Shown here: positions 52,633 to 58,149 of the stretch, piece by piece
Numbering within the stretch: the first letter of the stretch is position 1
How the letters are laid out: every line of letters starts with the position of its first letter
DNA from: Proteiniphilum saccharofermentans
GTDB taxonomy: Bacteria; Bacteroidota; Bacteroidia; Bacteroidales; Dysgonomonadaceae
Direction of reading: 5' to 3'
NCBI RefSeq assembly: GCF_900095135.1
Contig: NZ_LT605205.1
Location: 62,001-126,000, forward strand
DNA length: 64,000 nucleotides
Notes under the pieces: generated by a model
The model's database searches: none
Told to the model about the DNA's origin: nothing
Seen by the model: the letters and a program-made list of their open reading frames with translations, nothing else
Translations under genes and position numbers: made by a program

Positions 52633-53934
52633 TTAAGACCGGCCGATTAGCTTCTTTTTAAAGAGATCAAAGTCATTGGGTAGAGGGATCGATTGCTTTT
52701 TGTGTTGCATATAAGCAGCCAGCGCATCCGGGACTTGTATTGGGGCGCCGGTGGATGCTTCCACTGTCTCTTTGAATTTAGCCGGATGGGCGGTAGCCAG
52801 AAAAATGGCTGTTTCGTCTGACCTTTTCCCTTCTTTCAGTGCCAGGTATGCACATGCCCCATGCGGGTCGAGCAGATACCCTGATTCTATATAAACATTC
52901 TTGATGGCTGTACTGATCTCCTCATCACTGTATCGGAAAGATGAAATATCGTTAGTGATTGCTTTGTGAGAATGGCCGTAGAGATCAAGGATACGGTCGA
53001 AATTACTGGGAGCACCTACATCCATGGCGTTGGCAATGGTCTGTACCGATGCTCTCGGATTATATTGCCCGGTTTGCAGGTATTCCCTGAAGACATCATT
53101 TCGGTTGTTGGCAGCGATAAATCTATCTACCGGTAGTCCCATACGTTTGGCGAAAAGTCCGGCAGTGAGATTTCCCAGGTTTCCGCTTGGAACAGAAATC
53201 ACCATTTTTGTAAATTGTGTTTGTCTTACTAATTGTGCATAGGCCCAAAAGTAGTAGAATGATTGTGGAAGGAATCTGGCCACGTTAATGGAATTGGCAG
53301 AGGTGAGTTTTATCCGCTTATTCAATTCATCATCCATAAATGCTGATTTTACCAGAGCTTGACAGTCGTCGAATGTACCGTCCACTTCCAGAGCAACTAT
53401 ATTTTGTCCCAAGGTGGTGAATTGAGCTTCCTGCATATCGCTCACCTTTCCGGAAGGGTACAACACAAACACTCTGATACCTTCTACGCCCAGAAATCCG
53501 TTGGCTACCGCACTGCCTGTATCACCCGAAGTAGCGACCAACACGTTTACCTCCTCCTGCTTCTCTTTTACAAAGTGGGAGAGCATCCGCGCCATGAAAC
53601 GGGCACCTACATCTTTAAACGCGAAGGTGGGTCCATGGAATAATTCCAGCACATAAATCCCGTCTTCCACTTTTTTGAGTGGTATCTCAAAACTCAATGT
53701 GTCGCCGACAATGGCATCCAGTTTTTCTTTCGGAATATCTTCCCCGAAAAAGGCCTCCGCAACGGTCTTGGATATCCCTTGCAAGGATAAATCCATCATT
53801 CCATCAAAGAATTTCTGAGGAAGACGTGCGATCCTTTCAGGCATATACAGTCCCCTGTCGGGAGCCAATCCTTTTACTACTGCTTCTTGCAGGGAAACGA
53901 TGAATGCTTCTTTATTTGTACTGTAATATTTCAT
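52633..53934 (-). CDS. thrC: Threonine synthase
   Basis: A 433-residue PLP enzyme that converts O-phosphohomoserine to threonine. The PLP lysine is in HGPTFAFKDVGARFMARML near residue 106, and the phosphate cup is SGDTGSAVANGFLG near 140. The N-terminus (MKYYSTNKEAFIVSLQEAVVKGLAPDRGLYMPE, here named by its first and last motifs) is that of the yeast/E. coli-type enzyme. It is the last gene of the thrA-apgM-thrC operon, separated from apgM by 185 nt of repeat-rich DNA that may allow partial internal termination or re-initiation. Confidence 0.96.
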   Translation of the reverse strand: MKYYSTNKEAFIVSLQEAVVKGLAPDRGLYMPERIARLPQKFFDGMMDLSLQGISKTVAEAFFGEDIPKEKLDAIVGDTLSFEIPLKKVEDGIYVLELFHGPTFAFKDVGARFMARMLSHFVKEKQEEVNVLVATSGDTGSAVANGFLGVEGIRVFVLYPSGKVSDMQEAQFTTLGQNIVALEVDGTFDDCQALVKSAFMDDELNKRIKLTSANSINVARFLPQSFYYFWAYAQLVRQTQFTKMVISVPSGNLGNLTAGLFAKRMGLPVDRFIAANNRNDVFREYLQTGQYNPRASVQTIANAMDVGAPSNFDRILDLYGHSHKAITNDISSFRYSDEEISTAIKNVYIESGYLLDPHGACAYLALKEGKRSDETAIFLATAHPAKFKETVEASTGAPIQVPDALAAYMQHKKQSIPLPNDFDLFKKKLIGRS

Positions 53935-54119: not shown

Positions 54120-55325
54120 TTATCCAAAGACAGCTTTCATAAACTGGTCGCCATAGAGTAATCCGTAACTTCCCTCTTTTGCGGCAAACTCATCATATAC
54201 CTGTACGCTGTCGGGTTCGATATCCCGATGATAGATCAGGAAAGGAATAGGCTCACGTGTATGTGTGCGTATGGCACAGGGGGTGGGATGGTCGGGGAGG
54301 ATGGCGATGGTAACCGGTTCGTCCCATTGCAGGATCTCTTCATAGATGGTCTTTACAATACGGGCATCCAGATATTCAATAGTTTTCACTTTCAACGGAA
54401 CATCTCCTTCATGTCCCGCTTCGTCGCTGGCTTCGATATGGAGATATACGAAATCTTTTTCTTTTAATGCCCTGAGTGCCGCTTCTGCTTTTCCTTCATA
54501 ATTGGTGTCGTAGAGGCCTGTAGCCCCTTCTACCATGATCACTTCCAATCCCGCATACACGCCAATCCCCCTTATCAGATCCACGGCAGAGATCACTGCG
54601 CCGCTTTTGATCGGAAACATTTCATTGAATGGTTTCATCTTAGGGCGGAATCCTGGAGACCATGGCCAGATACTGTTGGCGGGAGACTTTCCTTCTACTA
54701 TCCTTTTTTTGTTGATGGGATGATCTGCCAGTATCTCCTGGGATGCAAAGATCAACCTGTTCAAAGCCTCGGCTGTCGGTCTTGCCTCCTCGTCGTCGGG
54801 TTGTATCAGATGTGCCCGGAATGGTTTTTCCGGAATATCATGGGGAGGAGTGCAACGGAGTCGCTTGTCACCACCTTTCATTTTCAACAGGTGGCGATAG
54901 GAGACCCCGGGGTAGAAACTAAATATGTCGTTTCCCAATTTGCTGTCAAGGGATCGGATCAGTTCCGCTGCTTCAGGGGTTGAGATATGTCCTGCCGAGT
55001 GATTTTTCAACAGTTCTCCTTCGAGACAAACCAGGTTACAGCGCATTCCCATCTCCCCGGGCAGGATATCCACACCCATGCTGGCAGCTTCCAGTACGCC
55101 ACGGCCCTCGTATACCGAAGCCACATCGTATCCCATGACAGAGAGGTTGGCGATCTCACTCCCCGGTGCAAATCCTTCAGGAACGGTATGTAGCAGTCCG
55201 TTTCTGCCTTTTCGTGCCAATAGGTCTATGTAGGGTGTGGCGGCGGCCTGTATGGTTGTCTTGTTTCCCAATGAAGCAATGGGTTCGTCGGCCATGCCGT
55301 CACCAAGAATTATTATATATTTCAT
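54120..55325 (-). CDS. ApgM-type phosphoglycerate mutase family protein, probable homoserine kinase
   Basis: A 401-residue member of the alkaline-phosphatase-like, archaeal-type 2,3-bisphosphoglycerate-independent phosphoglycerate mutase family. It begins MKYIIILGDGMADEPIASLG with the metal-binding aspartate, has the phospho-acceptor region GSEIANLSVMGYD near residue 55, and ends with the paired metal motifs HIEASDEAGHEGD near 295 and ILPDHPTPCAIRTHTREPIPF near 340. It lies 6 nt after thrA and before thrC, where thrB would be expected. No GHMP-type homoserine kinase is in the window. I recall genetic evidence from Bacteroides for homoserine kinase activity of such an operon-borne protein, so that role is more likely than glycolysis. 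Confidence 0.8.
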   Translation of the reverse strand: MKYIIILGDGMADEPIASLGNKTTIQAAATPYIDLLARKGRNGLLHTVPEGFAPGSEIANLSVMGYDVASVYEGRGVLEAASMGVDILPGEMGMRCNLVCLEGELLKNHSAGHISTPEAAELIRSLDSKLGNDIFSFYPGVSYRHLLKMKGGDKRLRCTPPHDIPEKPFRAHLIQPDDEEARPTAEALNRLIFASQEILADHPINKKRIVEGKSPANSIWPWSPGFRPKMKPFNEMFPIKSGAVISAVDLIRGIGVYAGLEVIMVEGATGLYDTNYEGKAEAALRALKEKDFVYLHIEASDEAGHEGDVPLKVKTIEYLDARIVKTIYEEILQWDEPVTIAILPDHPTPCAIRTHTREPIPFLIYHRDIEPDSVQVYDEFAAKEGSYGLLYGDQFMKAVFG

Positions 55326-55331
55326 TTTACC

Positions 55332-57776
55332 TTACCTGATATTTGCAATTGAGATGATATCTGAAAATACGCCTGCGGCCGTTACACCGGCACCGGCACC
55401 ATATCCTTTGATCACCATGGGATATTCATTATACCGCTCGGTAGTGATCATGATGATGTTATTACTTCCTTCCAGGTCATAGAAAGGATGCCCCTGTTCT
55501 ACCTCCCGCAGTCCTACTTCACAATTGCCGTTGTCATACGATGCCACGAATCGGAGTCGTTTTCCCTCTTTGGCCAGTTCTTGCCGGCGTGCCTCGAACG
55601 ATGTATCCATCTCAGGAATAGTCTTCCAGAACTCTTCCAGTGAGCCGTCAAAATATTTCTGGGGTATAAAGAGGTTTTTCTTTACATCTGATTGATTTAC
55701 GTTGGCTCCTGCTTCGCGGGAGAGGATTACTAATTTCCGTGTTACATCCAATCCACTCAAGTCTATGCGGGGGTCAGGCTCGGCGAATTGTGCCTCCACT
55801 GCCATTCGTATTGCTTTGCTGAATGGGATATCTTCACTCAATGTGTTGAAGATAAAGTTCAATGTGCCGGAAAGGACTGCTTCCAGTTTTACGATTTTGT
55901 CGCCTGAATTGGTCAGGGAATTCATTGTGTTGATAATGGGAAGCCCTGCTCCTACATTCGTTTCGAATAGAAATTTCACACCTGTTTTACGGGCAGTTTC
56001 TTTCAGATAACGGTAACTCTCATAATCGGATGAGGCGGCGATCTTGTTGGCGGTGACCACCGAAATATTTTTCGCCATCAGTTCGCCATATAATTTCGCG
56101 ATGTCCGGACTTGCCGTACAATCGACAAATACGGAGTTGAAGATATTCATTTTGATGATCTCTTCGCGGATACGTTCGGGTGAACTCTGTACGCCGTTTG
56201 CCATCAGGTTATCGAAGTATCCGTCCAGAGGAATCCCTTCACGGGTGAACAACGCTTTCCGTCCGTTAGCTATGCCTACGATGTTGATCCTTAACTTATT
56301 TTGTTCCTTTAGGGTGCTTTGCTGCTGCTTGATCTGTTCCAGCAGGTTACCACCCACAGTACCGGTGCCGACGATAAATAGATTCAACTCCTGGTAGGGT
56401 GACAGGAAGAAGGAGTCATGGATCACGTTGAGCGACTTCTTCAGGTCGGATTTGGCTATCACGCAGGAGATATTGGTTTCCCCCCCTCCCTGTGCCAGCG
56501 CCACAATACTGATACCGTTCCGTCCCAAAGCACCGAAAAATTTTCCCGCAATGCCCGGTACATGCTTCATGTTCTGTCCGACAATGGCAATGGTAGCCAG
56601 ATCATATTCCACGATGATATCGTTAATGCTTCCCATCCCTATTTCATGGGCAAATTCCTTTCGGAGCACCTGTTGTGACAGGAGCGCATCCTGTGAACGT
56701 ACCCCGATAGAGGAACTGTTCTCCGATGATGCCTGTGAAACAATAAAAACGCTGACACCGTTGTCGGCTAAAGCAGAGAAAATACGTTTGTTTACACCGA
56801 TCACCCCTACCATACCTAATCCCTGGATAGTGATCAGTGCCGTATCATTGATAGATGAGATACCTTTAATGATCTTTCCGTTTCGTGAGGGTTCGATATT
56901 CTTTATCAACGTACCTTCCGTTTCGGGATGGAACGTGTTCTTGACACGTATGGGGATATTTTTGTGATAAACAGGGAAAATGGTAGGAGGATAGATGACC
57001 TTTGCTCCGAAGTTGGACAGCTCTATCGCTTCGGTAAATGACAACTCCTCGATGACATAGGCAGAATTGATGATCTTGGGATCGGCTGTCATAAACCCGT
57101 CTACGTCTGTCCATATCTCCAGCACCGAAGCATTCATTGCTGCTGCGATGATAGCAGCAGTATAGTCCGAACCTCCCCGTCCCAGGTTCGTGATGTCATT
57201 GTTGTCGTTGCTGGATGAGATAAATCCGGGTACCACTGCCACACGAGGTGGTGGCATTTCGGAGAATGTTTTACGGATCAGTTCATTCGATCGTGCCAGA
57301 TCGGGAATATGATTGTGAAATTGTTTGTCTGTCTTGATGAATTTGGTGGCATCATATAGTTGCGCCATGTCAATTATCTTGCTGATGATCAGGGAGGAAA
57401 ATCGTTCTCCATAGCTGACAATTTTGTCGGAGGTCTTCTGTGAGAGATCGCCGATAAGAAATACTCCTTGTAAAATATTGCGTAGCTCTTCGAATAAATG
57501 TCCTGTCTTTTGCTTTAGCTCTTCCTTGTCATCCGGAGAGGAGATCATTTTTTCAATCAACTCCTCATGACGCAGAATTATTTCCTCGATCAACGTTTTA
57601 TAGCCCGGATTACCGTTCAATGCGAAATTGGCAGCCAGCAACAAGCGGTCTGTTACACCCCCCAGCGCTGAAACTATCACAATGACGGGCTCCCTCTCTT
57701 TTTCTATGATCTTCTTGACTCGTTGTAAACTATCGGGCTCACCTACGGATGTTCCCCCGAATTTCATCACCTTCAT
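55332..57776 (-). CDS. thrA: Bifunctional aspartate kinase/homoserine dehydrogenase I
   Basis: An 814-residue fusion that catalyses the first and third steps from aspartate to threonine and methionine. The kinase domain starts MKVMKFGGTSVGEPDSLQRV and has GRGGSDYTAAIIAAA near residue 210. Two ACT regulatory domains (residues ~310-460, with TIQGLGMVGVIGV and VAIVGQNMKHVPGIAGK-like segments) should mediate threonine feedback inhibition. The NAD(P)-binding homoserine dehydrogenase part begins NLFIVGTGTVGGNLLEQI near 465 and has VTANKIAAS and LSGTLNFIFN. Its 5' leader contains a threonine-rich peptide and attenuator. Confidence 0.96.
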   Translation of the reverse strand: MKVMKFGGTSVGEPDSLQRVKKIIEKEREPVIVIVSALGGVTDRLLLAANFALNGNPGYKTLIEEIILRHEELIEKMISSPDDKEELKQKTGHLFEELRNILQGVFLIGDLSQKTSDKIVSYGERFSSLIISKIIDMAQLYDATKFIKTDKQFHNHIPDLARSNELIRKTFSEMPPPRVAVVPGFISSSNDNNDITNLGRGGSDYTAAIIAAAMNASVLEIWTDVDGFMTADPKIINSAYVIEELSFTEAIELSNFGAKVIYPPTIFPVYHKNIPIRVKNTFHPETEGTLIKNIEPSRNGKIIKGISSINDTALITIQGLGMVGVIGVNKRIFSALADNGVSVFIVSQASSENSSSIGVRSQDALLSQQVLRKEFAHEIGMGSINDIIVEYDLATIAIVGQNMKHVPGIAGKFFGALGRNGISIVALAQGGGETNISCVIAKSDLKKSLNVIHDSFFLSPYQELNLFIVGTGTVGGNLLEQIKQQQSTLKEQNKLRINIVGIANGRKALFTREGIPLDGYFDNLMANGVQSSPERIREEIIKMNIFNSVFVDCTASPDIAKLYGELMAKNISVVTANKIAASSDYESYRYLKETARKTGVKFLFETNVGAGLPIINTMNSLTNSGDKIVKLEAVLSGTLNFIFNTLSEDIPFSKAIRMAVEAQFAEPDPRIDLSGLDVTRKLVILSREAGANVNQSDVKKNLFIPQKYFDGSLEEFWKTIPEMDTSFEARRQELAKEGKRLRFVASYDNGNCEVGLREVEQGHPFYDLEGSNNIIMITTERYNEYPMVIKGYGAGAGVTAAGVFSDIISIANIR

Positions 57777-57988
57777 ATTGATTATATTTTTAACCCTGAG
57801 GTTATATGAAACATTTTTTTAGAATTGAAATTAATAAACTAACTTGTTGATCCCGACAACGTGTCCTGAAATGAATTAACTCATCAGGTAGCTCTTTATT
57901 CTTTAATGGATTTATGGAATTTGAAATTTGACTCCCATTCGGTCGTCGAATAACAGTTTGACCCCTGTCCAGTTGTCTAACGTTGTTT

Positions 57989-58012
57989 CTCGTCAAAAAA
58001 CGGACGAGTCCG
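57989..58012 (-). terminator. Attenuator of the threonine operon: terminator with alternative antiterminator
   Basis: On the minus strand CGGACTCGTCCG (58012-58001) folds back on itself and is followed at once by TTTTTT (58000-57995). The middle of that stem, CTCGTC (58008-58003), can instead pair with GACGAG just past the U-tract (57994-57989), which would prevent the terminator. The two structures exclude each other. Confidence 0.7.
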
Positions 58013-58031
58013 GGTGCGAAGAATTTACATA

Positions 58032-58045
58032 ACCCCCTAAGGGGT
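58032..58045 (-). promoter_or_regulatory. Hairpin at the end of the thr leader peptide
   Basis: On the minus strand ACCCC-TTA-GGGGGT forms a stem spanning the last codons and the stop codon of the leader peptide. It is in the right place to act as a pause or ribosome-sensing stem. Confidence 0.5.
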
Positions 58046-58096
58046 CATGGTCATAGTAGTGGTAGTGTGGAGGTATGTTGAATACAATCTCTGCAT
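58037..58096 (-). CDS. thrL: Threonine operon leader peptide
   Basis: An ATG at 58096 opens a 19-codon frame ending in TAG. The product reads MQRLYSTYLHTTTTMTMTP: seven of 19 residues are threonine, four of them consecutive (ACT ACC ACT ACT) and two alternating with Met. It starts about 20 nt after a good promoter and ends 25 nt before the attenuator stem, with thrA as the first downstream gene. This is the architecture of ribosome-mediated attenuation, as in E. coli thrL, although sequence and codon mix (Thr/Met, not Thr/Ile) differ. When charged Thr-tRNA is scarce the ribosome would stall on the Thr run and favour the antiterminator. The frame is too short for routine gene calling. Confidence 0.75.
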   Translation of the reverse strand: MQRLYSTYLHTTTTMTMTP

Positions 58097-58117
58097 TGCT
58101 CACATTTGATTTTATTG

Positions 58118-58149
58118 CAAAGATAGCGGAATAATTGATAAAATGCAAT
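58118..58149 (-). promoter_or_regulatory. Promoter of the threonine operon
   Basis: On the minus strand ATTG (58149-58146), a 20-nt spacer and TATCTTTG (58125-58118) match the Bacteroidetes promoter with one mismatch. The leader peptide ATG follows 22 nt after the -7 element. About 340 nt of leader RNA precede thrA. Confidence 0.65.

Follow-up and report, generated by a model that had tools for sequence, protein, structure and literature searches.

The window (the whole 64-kb stretch of DNA that we analysed) comes from a 4.41-Mb genome of one contig, and the named record closest to its ThrA is that of Proteiniphilum acetatigenes DSM 18083 (97% identity). On the minus strand lie, in this order, thrA, an apgM-like gene and thrC (Table 1), the same three genes that an earlier note on this DNA had placed downstream of a threonine-rich leader peptide. 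The apgM-like gene, situated between thrA and thrC, is a TIGR02535 member and a disputed candidate for the homoserine kinase. Its homologue in Bacteroides thetaiotaomicron, BT2402, is described in the accessible part of one study as important in minimal medium unless threonine is supplied, and as failing to complement an E. coli thrB mutant (PMC7311316). Taken together, thrA, the TIGR02535 gene with these BT2402 data, and thrC indicate that the operon makes threonine; that the apgM-like gene shares a Thr leader with thrA and thrC supports a role for it in threonine synthesis.

Table 1. Features of the thr operon and its leader region in the window
Feature	Position	Strand	Basis
thrA, bifunctional aspartate kinase/homoserine dehydrogenase I (AK-HSD I)	55332..57776	-	
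apgM-like gene, TIGR02535 'proposed homoserine kinase'	54120..55325	-	
thrC, threonine synthase	52633..53934	-	
Presumed Bacteroidetes-type promoter: TTG 58148-58146, 20-nt spacer, -7-type box TATCTTTG 58125-58118	58118..58148	-	
Thr/Met leader ORF encoding MQRLYSTYLHTTTTMTMTP, stop TAG 58039-58037	58037..58096	-	read in sequence; in-frame ORF in 52/52 near-relative rows
SL1, 9-bp hairpin C-AUGACCCC / UUAG / GGGGUUAU-G	58028..58049	-	fold, covariation, pair counts
'Terminator' of the earlier note: 4-bp stem CGGA-CUCG-UCCG + U6; weak, sub-clade-specific, role doubtful	57995..58012	-	fold, alignment
Alternative 6-bp hairpin CUCGUC-CGUUUUUU-GACGAG, U-tract in loop; stronger than the 'terminator'	57989..58008	-	fold

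The Thr-rich ORF named in the earlier note was confirmed. The 19-codon frame contains seven Thr codons, four of them in a row (TTTT in the peptide), and it was unique on both strands of the window when ORFs of 8-40 amino acids were screened for a TTT run and 7 or more Thr. Among 5000 dinucleotide shuffles of the 374-nt region, an ORF with at least 7 Thr arose in 23, and one that additionally contained TTTT arose in none. Upstream stand TATCTTTG and a TTG, which we take, from the consensus, to be a promoter of the Bacteroidetes type. Both boxes of this promoter, also proposed in the earlier note, are present in the window; the TAnnTTTG box was kept in 51 of 52 near-relative leaders, whereas the TTG, at the spacings examined, was kept in just 11 of them. 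A small hairpin, AAUGCAG / UUGUAUU (window ~58098-58082), lies over the leader start codon and was present in 21 of 48 relatives.

Our comparative set consisted of 161 distinct regions upstream of thrA (125, plus 36 added later), comprising 60 near-relative loci (ThrA identity of roughly 72% or higher) from Proteiniphilum, Petrimonas and genera close to them, and 101 more distant loci. Alignment of relatives, which the earlier note had suggested as a way to look for a conserved Thr-rich short frame, recovered the 3' end of the leader upstream of thrA in 54 of the 60 near-relative loci; the other six were two truncated by contig ends, three (L153-L155) with an altered leader, and L144 with none visible. 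A stricter pattern dropped L141 and L156, and all 52 rows then analysed held an in-frame leader with 3-8 Thr, usually 21-25 codons long. The Thr codon ahead of the hairpin described below (SL1) varied at its first, second and third positions with values of 0.04, 0.10 and 0.44, and all four ACN codons were seen among the 52 rows, indicating constraint on the encoded residue. That codon was followed by ATG ACC CCN in 51 of 52 leaders; the combination of Thr with Met codons pointed out in the earlier note was confirmed. A conserved ORF rich in codons for the end product and placed upstream of the operon, the general mark of a leader-peptide attenuator, is therefore present here.

Further searches bore on how specific the leader is to thrA. 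Of the 159 loci with at least 200 nt of upstream sequence, 53 had a stop-to-stop frame in which a stretch of 10 codons included 5 Thr or more, against 1 of 159 in the reverse complement. Of 101 family genomes, 52 contained a pattern built around SL1, once each, and the control pattern matched nowhere; every occurrence of the SL1 pattern lay 116-364 nt upstream of a thrA match, although in G117 that match begins only at residue 126. The leader was not found in any of 19 further loci of the same family with ThrA near 65% identity, which include Dysgonomonas-like genera. Among the 101 more distant loci the SL1 hairpin was found by pattern in 29, and a second form of the leader was found in 25 Bacteroides-type loci, chosen by their invariant downstream motif. 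In these loci (e.g., L078 and L088) a nearly invariant TGTGTTTCTACGTG stands just past the leader stop, across all 25, with one near-exact copy per genome in five genomes. Whole-genome search with the Bacteroides motif gave six matches in five genomes, which were the five thr leaders and one site elsewhere with 2 mismatches, and one control match. A strict pattern for the Bacteroides form matched one of 295 genomes of the order, a narrow pattern that says little about looser forms. A looser hairpin pattern applied to six family genomes found the thr leader in five, together with unrelated sites and control matches, and was discarded as not specific; its second match in G013 lay within apparent coding sequence (L137).

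The last Thr/Met codons of the ORF and the bases just beyond it form SL1, a hairpin that the earlier note did not mention. The window SL1 folded with -15.1 kcal/mol (z -3.3), which none of 200 shuffles equalled. When every pair of columns was scored without bias for covariation in an alignment of 48 leaders (effective number 29), with the six-sequence sub-clade of the window (the window clade) set aside, the closing pair of SL1 scored above every other pair, 27.4 compared with 19.8 for the runner-up, which is no base pair. This closing pair links the third position of a Thr codon with the base preceding the ancestral stop, and in the 52 leaders it was C-G in 29, U-A in 11, G-C in 3, A-U in 1, U-G in 1 and unpaired in 7 (standard pairs in 45 of 52). 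In the A1 alignment of 40 sequences, 88.7% of the cells of SL1 and of a second hairpin, SL3, were paired, compared with 27-55% when the pairing was slid one to three columns. Within SL1 itself two-sided changes occurred at the closing pair only, and five of the nine pairs were invariant in the 40-sequence alignment. Alternative registers with upstream Thr codons were seen in 19 and 14 of 48 leaders; these and the invariant pairs count against the SL1-based reading proposed below. RNAalifold returned SL1 alone from the family alignment and little more from the Bacteroides alignment.

The position of the stop codon relative to SL1 differs among leaders. The ancestral stop, UAA (58027-58025 in the window), immediately follows the SL1 foot, and in 41 of 52 leaders the frame crosses TGG, the peptide ending as ..MTMTPWGV(M/I/R); in seven, the window's included, TAG replaces TGG, so that the peptide stops at MTP while the stem is intact. 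In the window clade this UAG lies in the SL1 loop, and the early stop with an intact stem indicates that the peptide tail WGVM is dispensable. Loss of the tail after MTP in these 7 of 52 leaders is not what is expected of arrest peptides of the TnaC/SecM kind, which have a conserved C-terminal peptide. An SL1-type hairpin, ACCC-NNNG-GGGU, one pair shorter, was present in 24 of the 25 Bacteroides-type loci, but it is read differently: as ACC CUU NGG GGU and stop in Bacteroides and as ACC CCU UNG GGG GUU in the family, so that Bacteroides leader tails are mostly LRG or LWG, a different frame through the same hairpin. The occurrence of SL1 in two frames, together with the dispensable tail in the window clade, argues for selection on the RNA and not on the end of the peptide.

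Most family members carried two more hairpins, SL2 and SL3, after SL1, which we recognised from single-sequence folds, from pair counts and from a helix support matrix. Downstream of the leader, the next 70 nt folded better than shuffles in the family (mean z -2.29, SE 0.17, n=46) and less markedly in the six window-clade members (mean z -0.82). All seven pairs of SL3 varied on both sides somewhere in 40 sequences; since the registers of SL2 and SL3 shift between sub-clades in the MAFFT family alignment, the pair count underestimates SL3 and omits SL2. In the window clade SL2 and SL3 are lost or rebuilt, with the stem that the earlier note took for a terminator in their place, and their absence there shows that they are not universally needed. 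In Bacteroides their place is taken by the nearly invariant TGTGTTTCTACGTG and, in part of the set, by a covarying hairpin. We also considered whether TGTGTTTCTACG, a motif invariant in Bacteroides, pairs with TAGAAACA close to where the leader begins, and rejected this because the pairing, inspected by eye, is broken without compensation in several loci.

The his leaders provided a contrast within the same genomes. With a rule that required at least 5 pairs, at least 3 of them G-C, and a U-run 0-2 nt after the stem, a terminator was found in 30 of 31 his leaders (expectation 1.0). These leaders came from 33 hisG loci, two of which had no leader, and the sole failure, L212, is probably a false leader. 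They are textbook his attenuators (e.g., L179), with an HHHH leader and a strong terminator; the window genome's own hisG leader has MKANLFHHHHFHTCNQAS followed by ACCCGUCUGA..UCAGGCGGGU-Un. The thr and his leaders share an ORF of end-product codons, a similar size and, by eye, a TAnnTTTG-type box before the leader; in contrast, a strong GC-rich hairpin stands directly before a U-run in the 30 his leaders and is lacking from the thr leaders. In Bacteroides fragilis (L188) we also observed a leader of the BCAA type, MNNHTSINLAVLHIIRVVVIPSRA, ahead of ilvD with a hairpin downstream.

From these features we propose that the thr leader is an attenuator responding to Thr, and perhaps also to Met, that is gated by SL1 and whose output is something other than an ordinary intrinsic terminator, perhaps Rho; we consider this reading about evenly balanced between right and wrong. 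Its parts differ in strength. The leader very probably senses threonine supply, a point on which our confidence is strong; that SL1 would be the switch we hold with moderate confidence, and sensing of methionine and an output through Rho or pausing are weakly indicated. Transcription would begin near 58118, at the promoter, and the leader ORF, in which the Thr/Met codons are packed just before SL1, would then be translated. The anatomy of the leader implies that a ribosome stalled in the run leaves SL1 free and that one travelling on to the stop opens it. A shortage of charged tRNA-Thr would halt the ribosome on the Thr run before it reaches SL1, and SL1 would fold; with ample charged tRNA-Thr, the ribosome would enter and open SL1, stopping in its loop in the window clade or at its foot in most relatives. 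Formation of SL1, together with the linker and the SL2 and SL3 of most relatives, would then decide whether polymerase arrives at thrA, the leading candidate for the output being Rho-dependent or pause-controlled termination. Rho fits the missing terminator, and the alternatives are polymerase pausing at SL1 and mRNA stability. An excess of C over G is a weak sign of a Rho site, and downstream of SL3 this skew was +0.054 in the family (SE 0.009, n=44), +0.022 in the window clade (6) and -0.007 in Bacteroides (n=25), a modest pointer to a Rho site in the family and none in Bacteroides. One study describes Rho as both active and essential in B. thetaiotaomicron (PMC13269538), which shows no more than that the factor is available.

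A self-contained hairpin without a conserved competitor is an unusual switch, and a conserved antiterminator was looked for in two ways. Over 52 leaders the 3' arm of SL1 had no better downstream partner than chance (mean z +0.15), and pairing of this arm with the 5' arm of SL3 (GGUUAU/AUAACC) was rejected as a general rule on the same value; pairings of this type looked convincing singly in L033 (z -3.2), L145 (-2.0) and L016 (-2.3, at another site). The helix support matrix held no leader-to-downstream helix with support like that of SL1-SL3 and otherwise contained leader-internal registers and the start-codon hairpin. More specifically, and only tentatively, we suggest an attenuator with neither terminator nor antiterminator, in which SL1, built from the sensing codons and kept in two frames, could control Rho or RNA polymerase directly as nascent RNA; we think this possible, with the balance against it.

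The earlier note had instead explained the locus by attenuation of the E. coli thr type, in which the hairpin just before the U-tract terminates transcription and pairing of CTCGTC (58008-58003) with GACGAG (57994-57989) blocks termination when ribosomes stall. The Thr ORF upstream of a thr operon stands; the intrinsic terminator and antiterminator are not supported. Both pairings do exist in the sequence, three of the six window-clade members had, by eye, an unbroken run of 6 or more U right after the stem, and the textbook his attenuator shows that the organism uses the mechanism. However, the putative terminator stem, CGGA/UCCG, gave only -3.6 kcal/mol (z -0.76), which 40 of 200 shuffles equalled or bettered, and a terminator scan needing 5 pairs reported none at that site. 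Although the competing pairing is stronger (-7.9 kcal/mol, z -2.25), GACGAG lies 3' of the U-tract and would be made after the termination point; we infer that it cannot act as an antiterminator there. Within the window clade the stem was intact in five of six sequences and the GACGAG pairing exact in three of six (by eye); outside that sub-clade neither the stem nor the alternative pairing was conserved, the near relatives having other hairpins instead, and lack of conservation of that pairing in close relatives is what the earlier note had named as refuting its scheme. By the rule used for the his leaders, none of the six window-clade members had a terminator (shuffle expectation 0.4). We consider the scheme improbable. 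A related explanation, that classical attenuation acts through some other weak intrinsic terminator, either SL2 (AAGCAG-nnn-CUGCUU-Un) in a subset of species or one that the detection rule would miss, has more in its favour: 8 of 46 family leaders passed the rule where 1.7 were expected, five of the eight by SL2 with a short U-run, and this real excess makes intrinsic termination possible in some family species. Moreover, the thr leader of L129, a distant member of the order, has MKHQLHTIITITTTRPQTS and a strong hairpin before UUUU (fold z -4.3), indicating that classical thr attenuation also occurs in the order. Against it, most family members lack such an element, the 4 of 25 in Bacteroides do not exceed the 2.9 expected, and there is no conserved antiterminator, and we judge this explanation unlikely.

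Conserved hairpins without terminators would also suit control of mRNA stability or translation, in which stalling of the ribosome would shield the leader RNA or leave it exposed, with no attenuation of transcription, and by eye a hairpin of the CCGUU..AACGG type occurred near the thrA start in many family members. However, the distance of the leader stop from thrA, given where the SL1 pattern lies, makes direct coupling unlikely, and we found no alternative pairing that involves the thrA start; such control seems to us quite unlikely. That the ORF and hairpin are non-regulatory, by chance or as an unrelated small protein, is contradicted by the conservation, coding constraint, covariation and strict linkage to thrA, and is extremely improbable. 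An SL1-gated leader without an ordinary terminator is the reading that we prefer.

In E. coli, the thrL attenuator has a Thr-rich leader ORF, with Ile codons among the Thr, directly upstream of thrA. The leaders described here resemble it in having a Thr-rich ORF at that place; they differ in that their sequence is unrelated, Met takes the place of Ile beside the Thr codons, the rules used revealed no conserved intrinsic terminator or antiterminator, and the conserved RNA part is the hairpin inside the ORF. Other leader ORFs with Rho-dependent output exist. The accessible part of one paper describes such an output for the uORF of E. coli topAI (PMC12121999). As far as that part goes, the likeness is that translation of a small ORF would determine whether transcription ends prematurely, making an intrinsic terminator unnecessary; the difference is that the signal here would be the charging of tRNA-Thr and not an antibiotic, and the role of Rho here is hypothetical. 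Transcriptome maps of Bacteroidetes have yielded leader-peptide candidates, namely attenuator-like short ORFs in 5' UTRs of B. thetaiotaomicron (PMC7366714) and, in Flavobacterium, attenuation by leader peptides ahead of operons for amino acids (PMC9723704), in the accessible parts of those papers; the candidates are alike in being short 5' UTR ORFs, and those parts do not describe the thr leader, SL1 or the missing terminator. The Bacteroid-trp RNA motif, RF01692, is listed as a candidate cis-regulatory RNA of Bacteroidetes (PMC2864571). Its link to trp is taken from its name. Scanning of the window stretch and 12 loci against Rfam gave no family, the Rfam thr leader included, above the gathering threshold at the thr leaders. 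The only hit was to the small RNA BTncRNA_FopS, away from the leader but close to the thr locus in a Phocaeicola MAG (L069:8352-8421). Our search of the open-access literature found no description of a thr leader of Bacteroidales; Vitreschak et al., in 2004, reportedly mentioned attenuators in Bacteroidetes/Chlorobi, and an earlier prediction of the thr leader is possible.

If the SL1-gated reading is true, one bacterium would use two designs for one job, textbook attenuation with a terminator for histidine and a hairpin within the ORF, with no terminator, for threonine, and attenuator searches that depend on finding terminators would overlook the threonine type. The Bacteroides form makes the design testable in a genetically tractable gut commensal.

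Two further observations concern individual relatives. About 200 nt upstream of thrA in L153, L154 and L155 (genus g38) the leaders, read by eye, are nearly Thr-free and rich in Ser and Tyr (e.g., MYNLYSIYSTSYPMPRLGKK), and two of these genomes have a second thrA; possibly this leader has been retuned to another signal. An element beginning CGACCGAAGGGAGTCAAAT forms a tandem repeat 100-300 nt upstream of thrA in L002 (P. acetatigenes-like) and is present as a single copy in the window (57927-57945); of the three genomes searched for it, two carried it at the thr leader and the third carried it elsewhere, with 2 mismatches.
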